Under the pieces are notes generated by a model, which was not told the origin of the DNA, searched no databases, and saw only the letters and a list, made by a program, of their open reading frames with translations. A stretch of 64,000 nucleotides of DNA from Cytophaga aurantiaca DSM 3654. Its GTDB lineage: Bacteria; Bacteroidota; Bacteroidia; Cytophagales; Cytophagaceae. Below are positions 527 to 63,982 of this stretch, one piece after another (the stretch's first letter is position 1; the number at the start of each line of letters is the position of its first letter). Where the stretch lies: assembly GCF_000379725.1 (NCBI RefSeq), contig NZ_KB903663.1:124001-188000 (forward strand), read 5' to 3'. The position numbers and the translations under genes were made by a program.

Positions 527-561
527 TTTACTGACCACTGTCTAACGACCACTGACCACTA
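527..561 (-). repeat. Heptad array starting at a stop codon
   Basis: Five consecutive 7-bp words read on the minus strand from 561: TAGTGGT, two words on, CAGTGGT again, and so on. Three of the five are CAGTGGT or its close variant CAGTAAA. The first word begins with the TAG stop codon of the upstream gene. The words are seen directly; any role is unknown. Confidence 0.7.
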
Positions 562-1737: not shown

Positions 1738-1927
1738 GCTTAAGGCCTAAGGCGAAAAGCCTAAAGCTTATGATGCATTTTGATTCAGCAAGACTTTTGT
1801 TTTTAAAAGCTTTAAGTCTTAGGCTTTCTGCATTAAGCATTAAAAAGAGCTGCTGTTATATTTAACAGCAGCTCTCTTAATAAGAAACGCAAAAGCATTA
1901 GGCGTTTGGCGTTAAGCCTTATGCTTA
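1738..1927. repeat. Three blocks of degenerate heptads between DnaJ-KTSC and clpB
   Basis: Block 1 (1738-1772) has five words of the GCTTAAG / GCCTAAG kind. Block 2 (1806-1847) has six words such as TAGGCTT and TAAGCAT. Block 3 (1886-1927) has six words which, on the minus strand, start with the clpB stop codon (TAAGCAT at 1927-1921, then AAGGCTT, then AACGCCA-type words). The blocks are in different registers and are separated by unrelated sequence and a terminator hairpin. The words share an AGGC/AAGC flavour in both orientations, so the RNA could fold back on itself. Confidence 0.7.
1841..1880 (-). terminator. Rho-independent terminator of clpB
   Basis: A perfect 13-bp stem (1846-1858 with 1863-1875, core AGAGCTGCTGTTA) with a 4-base loop, followed on the minus strand by T5. 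It lies about 50 bp beyond the clpB stop. It is also a plausible stop for transcripts from the left. Confidence 0.85.
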
Positions 1928-5843: not shown

Positions 5844-6407
5844 ATGAAACACATCTTTCGCATTTTAGCTATTGCTTTATTTTTACCTATTTTTTTTTCA
5901 TGCGATGATTTTAGTGAGAACACAAATGTTGTTTTAACCGATACACTTGCTCTTGATTCAATTATTGAGCCCTTAGCAGGTTATTCTTCGAAATTCAAAA
6001 CTTTGATCGTTACGGATACAGGAGTTTTCAGAGGTAGAAAATTCGGGGCAAGCAAAGCACTTACGTTGGAGCCGGGTTTAGAAAAAATTGAAGAAGATGC
6101 TACAAATACTACATACAACATAAATTTAGGAGCTACAGAATACGGAGATATCATGTACACCTTCAACAAAGACGTCTTCACTTCTGTAGAAGTTTTTGTA
6201 TATCCTAAAGACGATAGTAGCTTACAAGCATTAAAAACTGAACTGGTAGATTTTTATTCTAAAAAAATCGGCGCTTCGGTTTTAAAGAAAAAAGGAAAAA
6301 CAGTTTTACTGAATCCGGAAGAAAATTACGGAATTGAATGGAGCGAGGAAGGCAACAGAAAAATCAAAGATCTGCGCATGTATATTTTCAGTTTGTCGGC
6401 GTTATAG
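5844..6407 (+). CDS. Putative outer-envelope lipoprotein
   Basis: A 187-residue protein with a lipoprotein signal peptide: basic MKHIFR start, hydrophobic core, and lipobox FFSC with the acylated cysteine at C20. The next residues are DDF. The remainder is soluble, with beta-strand-like segments around TKxGxxRGRKFG and a C-terminal basic stretch. I recognise no enzyme motif. It begins 1 bp after the rlmN stop and must be cotranscribed with it, but a functional link to rRNA methylation is not implied. Its TAG stop is also the first three bases of a heptad array. Confidence 0.75.
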   Translation: MKHIFRILAIALFLPIFFSCDDFSENTNVVLTDTLALDSIIEPLAGYSSKFKTLIVTDTGVFRGRKFGASKALTLEPGLEKIEEDATNTTYNINLGATEYGDIMYTFNKDVFTSVEVFVYPKDDSSLQALKTELVDFYSKKIGASVLKKKGKTVLLNPEENYGIEWSEEGNRKIKDLRMYIFSLSAL

Positions 6408-6439
6408 GTTTTACGTATCATGTTTTATGTTTTAAGAAC
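6405..6439 (+). repeat. Heptad array starting at the lipoprotein stop codon
   Basis: Five 7-bp words from 6405, starting with TAGGTTT and including CATGTTT and TATGTTT. The words share the ending GTTT and a leading TA or CA. The array runs directly into the palindrome at 6435-6471. Confidence 0.65.
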
Positions 6440-6476
6440 GTCGTCGGGGTTATAAACCTCGACGACGTTCTGTTTT
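6435..6476 (+). terminator. 17-bp palindrome acting as terminator or repeat element
   Basis: The arms 6435-6451 and 6455-6471 pair over 17 bp with one G-U pair and a 3-base loop, and are followed by GTTTTA. The core GTCGTCG/CGACGACG is much richer in G+C than the surroundings. It can end rlmN-lipoprotein transcription. The length, and the high-GC core in an AT-rich gap, also fit a dispersed palindromic repeat. Confidence 0.65.
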
Positions 6477-10176: not shown

Positions 10177-10281
10177 TAATAAGTTATAAGTTATAAGTTT
10201 TAAGTTATAGGTTATAGGTTTTAATATGCCCATTAGGTTTTCAGTTCTTAAAACTTAAAACATAGAACTTAATACTCAAAG
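10177..10281. repeat. Inverted pair of heptad arrays in the sugar-locus divergent promoter region
   Basis: The left array (10177-10225) has seven 7-bp words of the type TTATAAG / TTTTAAG / TTATAGG. The right array (10247-10281) has five words of the complementary type CTTAAAA / CATAGAA / CTTAATA. They point towards each other around a short spacer, so the region can form a long imperfect hairpin or cruciform. It lies between the two divergent start codons, so it overlaps the regulatory region of both transcripts. Confidence 0.7.
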
Positions 10282-56840: not shown

Positions 56841-57596
56841 ATGAGCTTAGTACTTTCAACCATAACAGATCGTGTTGTAACCATTTCAATGAACCGTCCG
56901 GAAGTGTATAATGCACTTACGCCGGATTTAATTGAAGCATTGATCTCTGCATTCAAAGATGCGGATTCGAAAGATGCGATTGATTACATCATTTTCAAAG
57001 GTGAAGGAAAAGGTTTCTGTGCAGGTCTGGATCTGCAATGGGCGCTGACTATACAAAGCGACAAGGTTGTTGAAATTGTTGAGCAATATTTCAACGTACT
57101 TACAACCGCAATACACTTGTGCAGCAAGCCTGTGATCTGTCTGCTACACGGGCCAGCAAGCGGCGCCGGCGCTTCGTTGGTACTTGCATGTGATCTGATA
57201 TTTGCTTCCGAACATGGTTCACTGGCATTTCCATTTTTGGGTTTGGGATTACAGCCGGATACAGGCATGGCCTATTATTTAAAGCAGCGTGTTGGTTATC
57301 ATCAGGCATTTGAATGGTTATTAGAAGGAAAAAAATTAACTATTGATGAAGCAGTAAACCACAAGCTGGTTCAGAAAAAATTTACAGACGAAACAATGAT
57401 GTCGGATTATCTTGGCTTTTATCTGAAGTCATTAAGTCAGCTACAAACTGGTGCGGGCAAGTCGTTAAAATCATTGTTAATCGGACAATCTTCTTTTGAA
57501 GAAACGTTAAAAAAAGAAGCGCAACAACAAGCGCTTGCTGTTAAAGGCGGAATGTTGAAAATAAAAATTGAGGAGTTTTTTAAGAGTAGGCGCTAG
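56841..57596 (+). CDS. Enoyl-CoA hydratase/isomerase family protein
   Basis: From the Met at 56841 it has 251 residues (MSLVLSTITDRVVTISMNRP). The crotonase oxyanion hole shows as GKGFCAGLDL (57-65) and the second as HGPASGAGASLVLACD. The catalytic pair of mitochondrial crotonase is not obvious, so the reaction (hydration, isomerisation or thioester hydrolysis) is open. A start at 56763 would add 26 hydrophobic residues that overlap the previous gene and lie outside the family. Last gene of the rpoN transcript; its TAG opens a heptad array. Confidence 0.9.
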   Translation: MSLVLSTITDRVVTISMNRPEVYNALTPDLIEALISAFKDADSKDAIDYIIFKGEGKGFCAGLDLQWALTIQSDKVVEIVEQYFNVLTTAIHLCSKPVICLLHGPASGAGASLVLACDLIFASEHGSLAFPFLGLGLQPDTGMAYYLKQRVGYHQAFEWLLEGKKLTIDEAVNHKLVQKKFTDETMMSDYLGFYLKSLSQLQTGAGKSLKSLLIGQSSFEETLKKEAQQQALAVKGGMLKIKIEEFFKSRR

Positions 57597-57649
57597 TTGC
57601 GAGGTACTAGATTTTAGTTACTAGCTTCTAGGTATTAGTTGCTAGACTC
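57594..57649 (+). repeat. Eight perfect heptads starting at the crotonase stop codon
   Basis: Eight 7-bp words in register from 57594. Seven start with TAG (TAGTTGC twice, TAGTTAC, TAGCTTC, TAGGTAT and relatives) and one is GAGGTAC. The register may continue more weakly towards the next start codon at 57680. Confidence 0.85.
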
Positions 57650-57679
57650 GTTAAGTACAAAGTATTTAATTCTATAATA

Positions 57680-63558: not shown

Positions 63559-63896
63559 ACTGGATACCCTTAACGTCAGAAAGTCAATTAGAAGAAATCA
63601 TAACCACGTCGAATGAGGCGCCGGTTATGATCTTCAAACATAGTACACGCTGTTCAATCAGTTCAACTTCGTTGAATAGATTGGAGCGCAATTGGAATGA
63701 GAGTGAAATGGCAAATGTGAAAGCCTACTATTTAGATTTGATCGCCAACAGAGCTGTTTCAAATAAAATCGAAAGTCTCTTGCATGTTGAACATCAGTCT
63801 CCGCAAGCCATTCTTATTGAAAAAGGAAAGAGCAGCTGGGATGCATCGCATTACGATATTCAGTATGATGAAATAAAGAAGGCATTGGGAAGATAG
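63555..63896 (+). CDS. ytxJ: YtxJ-type bacillithiol system protein (thioredoxin-like)
   Basis: 113 residues, DUF2847/YtxJ family. Thioredoxin-like fold with a single active-site cysteine in FKHSTRCSIS (Cys33); the second Cys of CxxC is absent, so it would act as a monothiol bacilliredoxin. Its first ATG overlaps the end of the basic repeat gene by 4 bp (ATGA), so the two are translationally coupled. Its TAG opens a heptad array and a strong terminator follows. Confidence 0.85.
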   Translation: MNWIPLTSESQLEEIITTSNEAPVMIFKHSTRCSISSTSLNRLERNWNESEMANVKAYYLDLIANRAVSNKIESLLHVEHQSPQAILIEKGKSSWDASHYDIQYDEIKKALGR

Positions 63897-63934
63897 TTTG
63901 AGTTACTAGCTGATAGTTTCCAGTTACTAGACAT
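63894..63934 (+). repeat. Heptad array starting at the ytxJ stop codon
   Basis: Six units from 63894: TAGTTTG, a 6-bp AGTTAC, TAGCTGA, TAGTTTC, CAGTTAC and TAGACAT. Word content is close to that of the array at 57594. It runs straight into the terminator stem. Confidence 0.75.
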
Positions 63935-63982
63935 TTAAATAGAAAGAGTCCCGCCATTTAGCGGGACTCTTTCTATTTAAAT
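63933..63982. terminator. Perfect 22-bp terminator stem
   Basis: 63933-63954 pairs with 63961-63982 without a mismatch, loop of 6 bases. Core GAGTCCCGC/GCGGGACTC with AT-rich outer arms. No long T-tract directly follows on either strand outside the stem, but the outer arms supply U-rich RNA; it should work in both directions. Confidence 0.88.

Follow-up and report, generated by a model that had tools for sequence, protein, structure and literature searches.

Degenerate heptad arrays at gene ends in Cytophaga aurantiaca: stop codons, inverted arms and turnover between species

Heptad arrays in the 64-kb window

In the 64-kb stretch of the Cytophaga aurantiaca DSM 3654 genome analysed here (the window), several genes run into arrays of tandem 7-bp words. 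A preliminary description placed such arrays after five stop codons, those at 559 (minus strand), 1925 (clpB, minus strand), 6407 (a lipoprotein gene), 57596 (a crotonase gene) and 63896 (ytxJ), and all five are present in the sequence. Its statement that several word types share a single period was likewise upheld. We sorted the words into families, using letters assigned in this analysis, from the arrays listed, which are part of 148. Seven families occur in both C. aurantiaca and a second Cytophaga genome (G002): A (CTAGTTA), B (TAAGTTT), C (AAxGCxx), D (CAGTTGT), E (AATTATG), F (CAAATTC) and G (AGTACxx). An additional family, H (AAAGTGT), was recognised by eye in G002.

The A-family (TAG) array behind the crotonase gene (57594..57649, plus strand) consists, as first described, of eight 7-bp words, all in register and one of them starting with GAG; its first word, TAGTTGC, holds the stop codon. 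The TAGGCGC directly upstream of the stop (57587..57593, plus strand) could be an extra array word or merely coding sequence, and at this position TAG is present in L051, which carries a variant array, and absent in G002. The G002 orthologue has an array with identical first two words that nevertheless counts as absent by score (0.50, just under the cut-off). G-family-like words follow the C. aurantiaca array (TTAAGTACAAAGTAT; 57651..57665, plus strand); G-type words likewise lie 3′ of the array in G002 and trail A words at some other loci too. The second A-family array, after ytxJ (63894..63934, plus strand), includes one word of 6 bp and ends in the closing word TAGACAT, followed by a GC-rich hairpin (∼63938-63979). 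Its inverted partner begins ∼3 bp past the end of the window, with the terminator-like hairpin lying between the two arms.

The remaining arrays belong to other families. A single D-family array (TAGTGGT/CAGTGGT; 531..561, minus strand) with one broken word follows the gene ending at 559, where C. aurantiaca has TAG plus the array and G002 has, at the aligned protein end, TAA and a plain hairpin with a T run. Behind clpB lies a C-family array (AAxGCxx; 1893..1927, minus strand) that is kept in G002 with substitutions, and more C-family arrays are found beside terminator-like hairpins in the convergent gap between clpB and the DnaJ-KTSC gene (1738..1850). A sixth array had been suspected after the DnaJ-KTSC stop at 1667. 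It did not hold up: the G002 orthologue has no array by eye, and the best period-7 window of the gap is at 1738. The lipoprotein stop is followed by a B-family array (TAGGTTT/TATGTTT; 6405..6436, plus strand) and then a hairpin (∼6435-6471), and the period-7 score of this 3′ end in G002 is 0.29. The strongest array of the window (10179-10280) is an inverted pair between divergent genes, away from any stop. It is formed by a B-family left arm (TAAGTTA; 10179..10224, plus strand) with no nearby stop codon and an inverted right arm (CTTAAAACTTAAAAC; 10247..10280, minus strand), and the whole region folds weakly (z -1.3). At gathering scores, Rfam found only tRNAs in the window.

Period, anchoring and anatomy of the arms

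About 0.91 Mb of the C. aurantiaca genome (4.42 Mb, 46 contigs) was read. Counts were made in 800 kb plus the window (864 kb) and in a G002 sample of finally 1.2 Mb, with genes called by a simple ORF scorer, so that starts are less certain than stops, and with score cut-offs that were set by eye and were not identical between analyses. At a score of at least 0.55, the C. aurantiaca sample contained 52 intergenic windows with period 7, compared with 1, 2, 2, 5, 6, 10, 8 and 11 for periods 5, 6, 8, 9, 10, 11, 12 and 13, runs of N being scored as coding hits in these counts. The first 800 kb of G002 gave 37 windows at period 7 and 1, 0, 3, 1, 0, 10, 8 and 11 at the same control periods. Period-7 arrays scoring 0.55 were found at 38/791 C. 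aurantiaca 3′ ends (periods 5, 6, 8, 9 and 10: 1, 0, 3, 5 and 4) and at 25/790 5′ ends. Matching at lags of 7, 14 and 21 was raised in the 3′ flanks (z 6.5, 5.4 and 4.6); in the 5′ flanks lags 14 and 21 were raised (z 4.0 and 3.8) but lag 7 was not (z 0.7). The 7-bp arrays are real and beyond chance. The periodicity after stop codons that had been proposed as a check was borne out in C. aurantiaca, where the sample covered roughly one-fifth of the genome, and again in two further genomes.

Position was assessed in flanks whose intergenic space reached 120 bp or more (247 in C. aurantiaca, 295 in G002). The best period-7 window began no more than 10 bp from the stop in 21/34 array-bearing 3′ flanks of C. 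aurantiaca and 23/35 of G002, with 4 and 0 arrays at control periods 6 and 8 in C. aurantiaca and 2 and 0 in G002. On the start side, the same distance from the called start codon was kept in 11/30 and 16/30 flanks, respectively (period 6: 6 and 4; period 8: 0). These start-side arrays rule out an association with stops only. The proposed tie between arrays and stop codons was correct as far as it went, but arrays are also found at starts and in divergent gaps, often as inverted pairs.

The stop codon itself had been described as the first three bases of the first word. TAA or TAG in register with the stop was in excess in all three genomes examined: 30 versus 15.6 expected at 38 array ends in C. 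aurantiaca (p = 0.012), 30 versus 14.1 at 38 ends in G002 (p = 0.0025) and 26 versus 7.2 at 17 ends in G196, a distant member of the Bacteroidota (p = 0.0005). Other registers are used as well, with 23 TAA/TAG two bases on and 19 one base back in C. aurantiaca, and 15 in G196. Genes ending at arrays more often had TAG stops, i.e. 13/38 compared with 105/755 elsewhere in C. aurantiaca (Fisher p = 0.0018), 14/38 compared with 129/959 in G002 (p = 0.00037) and 13/17 compared with 106/284 in G196 (p = 0.0018). We also examined 38 A-family rows, three of them opposite-strand readings, from 20 regions chosen by a four-TAG-word pattern that biases them towards TAG registers. Seventeen of the 38 lay near a coding stop, which was in word 1 in ten, word 2 in one, word 3 in two and upstream in four; such a placement follows if the TAG words of the array supply the first in-frame stop. 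The in-register stop is a preference, not a rule.

TAG was slightly the commonest stop in the 371 kb of G196 (119/301 genes; TAA 115, TGA 67), and only 13 of the 119 TAG stops are at array ends. Such a stop preference seems unusual.

An arm appears to consist of about five imperfect 7-bp words, reading outward from the adjoining gene. Among 387 intergenic regions of 75-700 bp in C. aurantiaca, 337 had no array, 20 had one on the left only, 14 on the right only and 16 on both sides (2.8 expected); the corresponding numbers for 479 G002 regions were 428, 12, 18 and 21 (2.7 expected). At the cut-off used, one-sided regions outnumbered two-sided ones among those bearing arrays (34/50 in C. aurantiaca, 30/51 in G002). 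Where both arms were present, their inverted similarity exceeded direct similarity in 15/16 and 19/21 regions, respectively, and permuting partners lowered the total score from 324 to 219 (sd 20) in C. aurantiaca and from 354 to 187 (sd 26) in G002. The true partner was the best match for 7/16 and 6/21 left arms only, and family resemblance therefore explains much of the similarity within pairs. Two-sided regions of C. aurantiaca were found in every gene orientation (-- 6/116, ++ 4/127, -+ 3/91, +- 3/53); in Cytophaga, pairs in divergent regions were about as frequent as in other orientations and transcription direction had no clear effect.

The A family has a common end. A closing word [TC]AGA was present in 31/38 A-family rows (TAGAC in 21), and 30/38 rows counted exactly four words, which is also the search minimum. 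In rows with a closing word, the first word carried TAG in 30/31, compared with 75/93 for words 2-4, and the opening TAG is thus mildly special. The order of words in A arms is weakly fixed (heterogeneity 0.089 versus 0.041, sd 0.015, permutation maximum 0.108). Given only a mildly special opening and this weak order, part of the array may be a slippage product. An opening TAGT rule for the D family was dropped, the runs being few and mixed (3/4 start-side and 1/5 stop-side in C. aurantiaca; 1/5 in G002). By inspection we also rejected cassettes of genes between matching arms, as neighbouring regions on one gene differ in word family (C1:31699, C/C; C1:32727, B/B).

At three C. aurantiaca loci (L186, L193 and L194) a single strand carries two A arms in succession, separated by 39-47 bp, which suggests that the A arm itself can be duplicated as a unit. 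By eye, inverted intergenic repeats spaced by ∼9 bp form another class (C44:109837-110036 and C24:160589-160808: CTGATTAAC CTGATTAGA; TGTCTGAACCACTGATT).

Turnover between species and arrays in other Bacteroidota

To follow array turnover we compared orthologous gene ends in the two Cytophaga species. Among 276 reciprocal-best orthologues, the 3′ end had an array in both species in 12 cases, in C. aurantiaca only in 12, in G002 only in 8 and in neither in 244; for the 5′ ends of 271 orthologues the numbers were 8, 8, 2 and 253. One-sided 3′ calls depend on the cut-off (0.53), as 7/12 of the C. aurantiaca-only and 3/8 of the G002-only ends score 0.46-0.52 in the other species; clear absence (≤0.39) was found for 5/12 and 5/8, respectively. 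Among 220 conserved neighbour pairs, an intergenic array was present in both species in 14, in C. aurantiaca only in 8 and in G002 only in 1.

Word similarity at the 20 ends where both species have an array was bimodal: ten ends were at background (scores 5-11) and ten were similar (19-39). Nine of the 20 exceeded the 95th percentile of between-locus scores (3′ 3/12; 5′ 6/8). Across the two species arrays are thus retained at corresponding gene ends, with unrelated words in ten of the 20 shared arrays. By eye the family differs on both sides in several regions (e.g. C44 gene 102 and C24 gene 93), and at a strict cut-off six regions were two-sided in both species, with the same family in four and a different one in two. 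This hints that both arms may change in concert. At the orthologues of C24 gene 77 and C35 gene 151, G002 carries an TCTGTGGCACACAGACC element where C. aurantiaca has heptad arms.

The preliminary description took different words with one period as the sign of a common mechanism rather than a common ancestor. This applies in part: the TAG-family arms have a common closing word, and the clpB and crotonase arrays are plainly orthologous, so ancestry counts within word families. Between families, a common generating process or a common constraint may be at work.

Arrays of this kind extend beyond Cytophaga. Five AGT at period 7 were found in 161/247 Bacteroidota genomes and at period 8 in 67/247; simple short repeats are picked up by the same searches, and their reversed control is frequent as well, which means that the numbers show the spread of such arrays and not membership of one system. 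The TAG pattern was present in 11/19 genomes of the family, including that of C. aurantiaca, with the control commoner than the pattern in one of the 11. C. aurantiaca has 70 five-AGT places at period 7 (reversed control 50) and none at period 8, whereas in G196 period 7 is absent and 114 places have period 8 (control 34). A single AGT-core superfamily was rejected, the reversed control (TGA words) being abundant as well.

In the 371 kb of G196, intergenic windows scoring at least 0.52 numbered 16 at period 8, two at period 7, one each at periods 9 and 12, and none at 5, 6, 10 or 11. Period-8 arrays, with words that are not all TAGT, were found at 17/301 3′ ends (period 7, 2; period 6, 1) and at 3/296 5′ ends. 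Nine of 125 G196 regions were two-sided (0.97 expected), although two of them do not look inverted by eye; convergent regions contributed 6/16 and divergent ones 0/49. The distant genome G196 thus has a similar layout built of 8-bp words. In a further sample (G129/G094, 340 kb), period-7 arrays were present at 12/290 3′ ends, with four at period 8; no inverted pairing was seen in its three two-sided regions, where direct similarity was higher.

Origin of the arms and relation to known repeats

In their behaviour the arms resemble DNA units that are dispersed and can be replaced: A-family arms share a closing word, an array may be there or missing at orthologous ends, the words at a fixed end can change, and in Cytophaga the direction of transcription makes no clear difference. 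The best explanation, to which we give somewhat less than even credence, is that they are dispersed intergenic DNA repeats, REP/MITE-like in behaviour, whose arms are copied and replaced, whose TAR words tolerate or supply a stop and which are reshaped by slippage. Arms sit alone or as inverted pairs at both ends of an intergenic region, paired regions being often able to form long imperfect hairpins, and would spread and be replaced as copied elements. As the words carry TAR and the period is not a multiple of 3, TAR would occur in every frame, and an arm may therefore adjoin or overlap the 3′ end of a gene. The arm would then lie flush with, or slightly over, that end, with its first in-frame TAR as the stop, and slippage would reshape it by gain or loss of words.

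We looked for traces of mobility. When loops were compared, the cross matches listed (the first 8 of 13 hits in C. aurantiaca and 8 of 50 in G002) spanned 16-44 bp, with no long common interior among them. In the neighbour regions of the two species that were inspected, none was recognisable as an empty site with intact flanks on either side, where a target-site duplication might have shown. Simple insertion would not usually exchange the words at a single stop. Y1-domain matches numbered 21 in four genomes. Of eight of these 21 loci that were read, one had an array ∼230 bp away, and of three more in the sample one had an array 337 bp away (plain counts), with no transposase clearly tied to arms. 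Y1 transposases as the mobiliser found no clear support, with an array within 350 bp at 2/11 loci.

Two further repeats were seen on contig C44. A palindromic family GACCCC..GGGGTC occurs at C44:108333-108628, C44:170544-170933 and C44:175785-176123, and CATGTTTATAG-like sequence lies close to two of these copies. That at C44:108333-108628 directly follows a Y1 transposase domain gene (C44:107889-108227), and the two make a possible REP/RAYT pair apart from the heptad arms. GTTGTTGGTG / CCAACAAC repeats (C44:128761-129192) follow another Y1-domain match (C44:128302-128517) at a distance of a few hundred bases.

Alternatively, paired arms might be transcribed 3′-end hairpins under selection, i.e. 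terminator-flanking or exonuclease-blocking RNA stems; the stem would begin at the end of the coding sequence and so include the stop. Folding gave z from -11.2 to -0.2 for 14 of the 16 two-sided C. aurantiaca regions (the two longest omitted), seven reaching -7 or below on at least one strand, and from -4.0 to -10.3 for seven of the nine G196 regions (the two non-inverted-looking ones omitted). Some arms flank terminator-like hairpins (clpB and ytxJ), and the two-sided regions of G196 are mostly convergent. Against this, four of the 14 folded C. aurantiaca regions, including that of the window, have |z| <2 on both strands, and divergent regions of Cytophaga are paired about as often as others. 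Co-directional regions showed no wobble bias on the transcribed strand (38 wobble-compatible versus 50; p = 0.24), and mismatches between arms were transversions more often than transitions (243 versus 159 in 50 elements). We regard selection for RNA hairpins as a rather unlikely account of the arms. Intrinsic terminators proper, with a GC-rich stem and T run at 3′ ends only, do not match the arms: pairs lie in divergent regions too, and the hairpin between the ytxJ arms is separate from them. Rho-type C-rich sites were also rejected, as outward 3′ arrays contain more G than C (0.161 versus 0.098 in C. aurantiaca; 0.210 versus 0.147 in G002).

We consider it unlikely, too, that the arrays are simply microsatellites, in which 7-bp slippage occurs anywhere, purifying selection spares the intergenic copies and template switching in quasi-palindromes makes the inverted partner. 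Heptanucleotides are the commonest class of long simple repeat in most surveyed genomes, as Mrazek (2007) is summarised in PMC4679880, where slippage of the polymerase is the proposed cause, and whole-word indels between arms were seen by eye in addition to the weakly fixed word order of A arms. On the 5′ side of the G002 orthologue of C35 gene 112 there is a long perfect TGAATTA run where C. aurantiaca has degenerate words, apparently a recent slippage expansion, and from this run slippage clearly also acts on the arrays. Slippage alone would not predict inverted pairing, though, and the distinct closing word common to A-family arrays and the recurrence of the same word families at unrelated loci in two species also speak against it.

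A bolder proposal is a phylum-wide system that installs arms made of words at gene boundaries and exchanges them, preferring the stop as anchor. Each arm would have an opening word, a few variable words out of a limited repertoire and a closing word, at a period set by lineage (7 or 8), and the family might change while gene and stop stay, as if by a dedicated copying or templating activity. This strikes us as quite improbable. Least probable are fail-safe stop arrays in all frames, with TAR words selected against readthrough or frameshifted ribosomes after a gene: the TAG-stop excess at array ends in C. aurantiaca, G002 and G196, the in-register TAR excess and the passage of periods 7 and 8 alike through all frames would suit them, but arrays also point away from genes at start codons, and inner D (CAGTTGT) and F (CAAATTC) words, on reading, hold few or no outward stops.

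The preferred reading, of REP/MITE-like repeats, can be set beside known systems. MITEs are dispersed intergenic copies with inverted ends. The arms are alike in both respects, but no common interior was seen in the loop matches listed and inverted termini are confined to two-sided regions (16/50 array-bearing regions in C. aurantiaca). Cyanobacterial STRR have a period of 7, and both they and long heptanucleotide simple repeats are near-perfect tandem copies. The arms have degenerate words and, in one family, a common closing word; most listed arrays are degenerate and not near-exact copies varying in number, with one perfect run in G002. Long heptanucleotide simple sequence repeats likewise have period 7 in Mrazek's survey as reported in PMC4679880.

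REP/BIME elements of the GTAG and CGTC super-families are, in the relevant parts of PMC3733652, short, palindromic, mostly intergenic, present in many copies and plausibly transcribed as hairpins, and the arms resemble them in this. REPs are described there as 20-40 bp palindromes with a tetranucleotide tag, the GTAG ones often near RAYT genes (PMC3733652). The arms here are instead made of tandem words, the loops between paired arms are unrelated, and no clear link to RAYT genes emerged at eleven Y1 loci. Nor are they single 20-40 bp stem-loops with a GTAG or CGTC tag: A arms open with TAG and close with TAGA, and symmetry, where present, is between two arms.

Intergenic TAACTGA heptamers occur, according to MacGregor (2015; PMC4679880), in marine Beggiatoaceae, Cyanobacteria and five Bacteroidetes, and the same paper points out that they end reading frames. 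Like the arms, they are intergenic tandem 7-bp words in Bacteroidetes. Their intergenic regions also hold other heptamers, and one set lies immediately behind a stop; relatives close enough to keep the gene neighbours have spacers that are shorter and free of repeats; and forward repeats can overlap the coding end by up to two words and four bases (PMC4679880). As presented there, the TAACTGA system uses one exact heptamer, lies mostly upstream of starts in the main genome and has no predicted structure of its own (PMC4679880), whereas the arms have degenerate words, several families and often inverted pairs, at stops and starts. Judged on the commonest words of the arrays listed, which differ from TAACTGA, the arms do not belong to the TAACTGA system.

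Searches of an open-access library, which lacks most subscription papers, turned up no account of inverted arms built of words at the ends of genes. The arms are filed as neither REP nor MITE, and we favour REP/MITE-like behaviour. The scattered degenerate heptamers of Bacteroidetes become a better defined object, i.e. arms flush with gene ends and often in inverted pairs, with a lineage-dependent period and fast turnover at fixed sites. The arms give testable predictions on the replacement of intergenic DNA without harm to genes, on the cause of the TAG-stop excess at some gene ends and on a possible action of hairpin-forming spacers at transcript ends in Bacteroidota. For annotation, an array can supply the stop of an open reading frame and sometimes its last codons.
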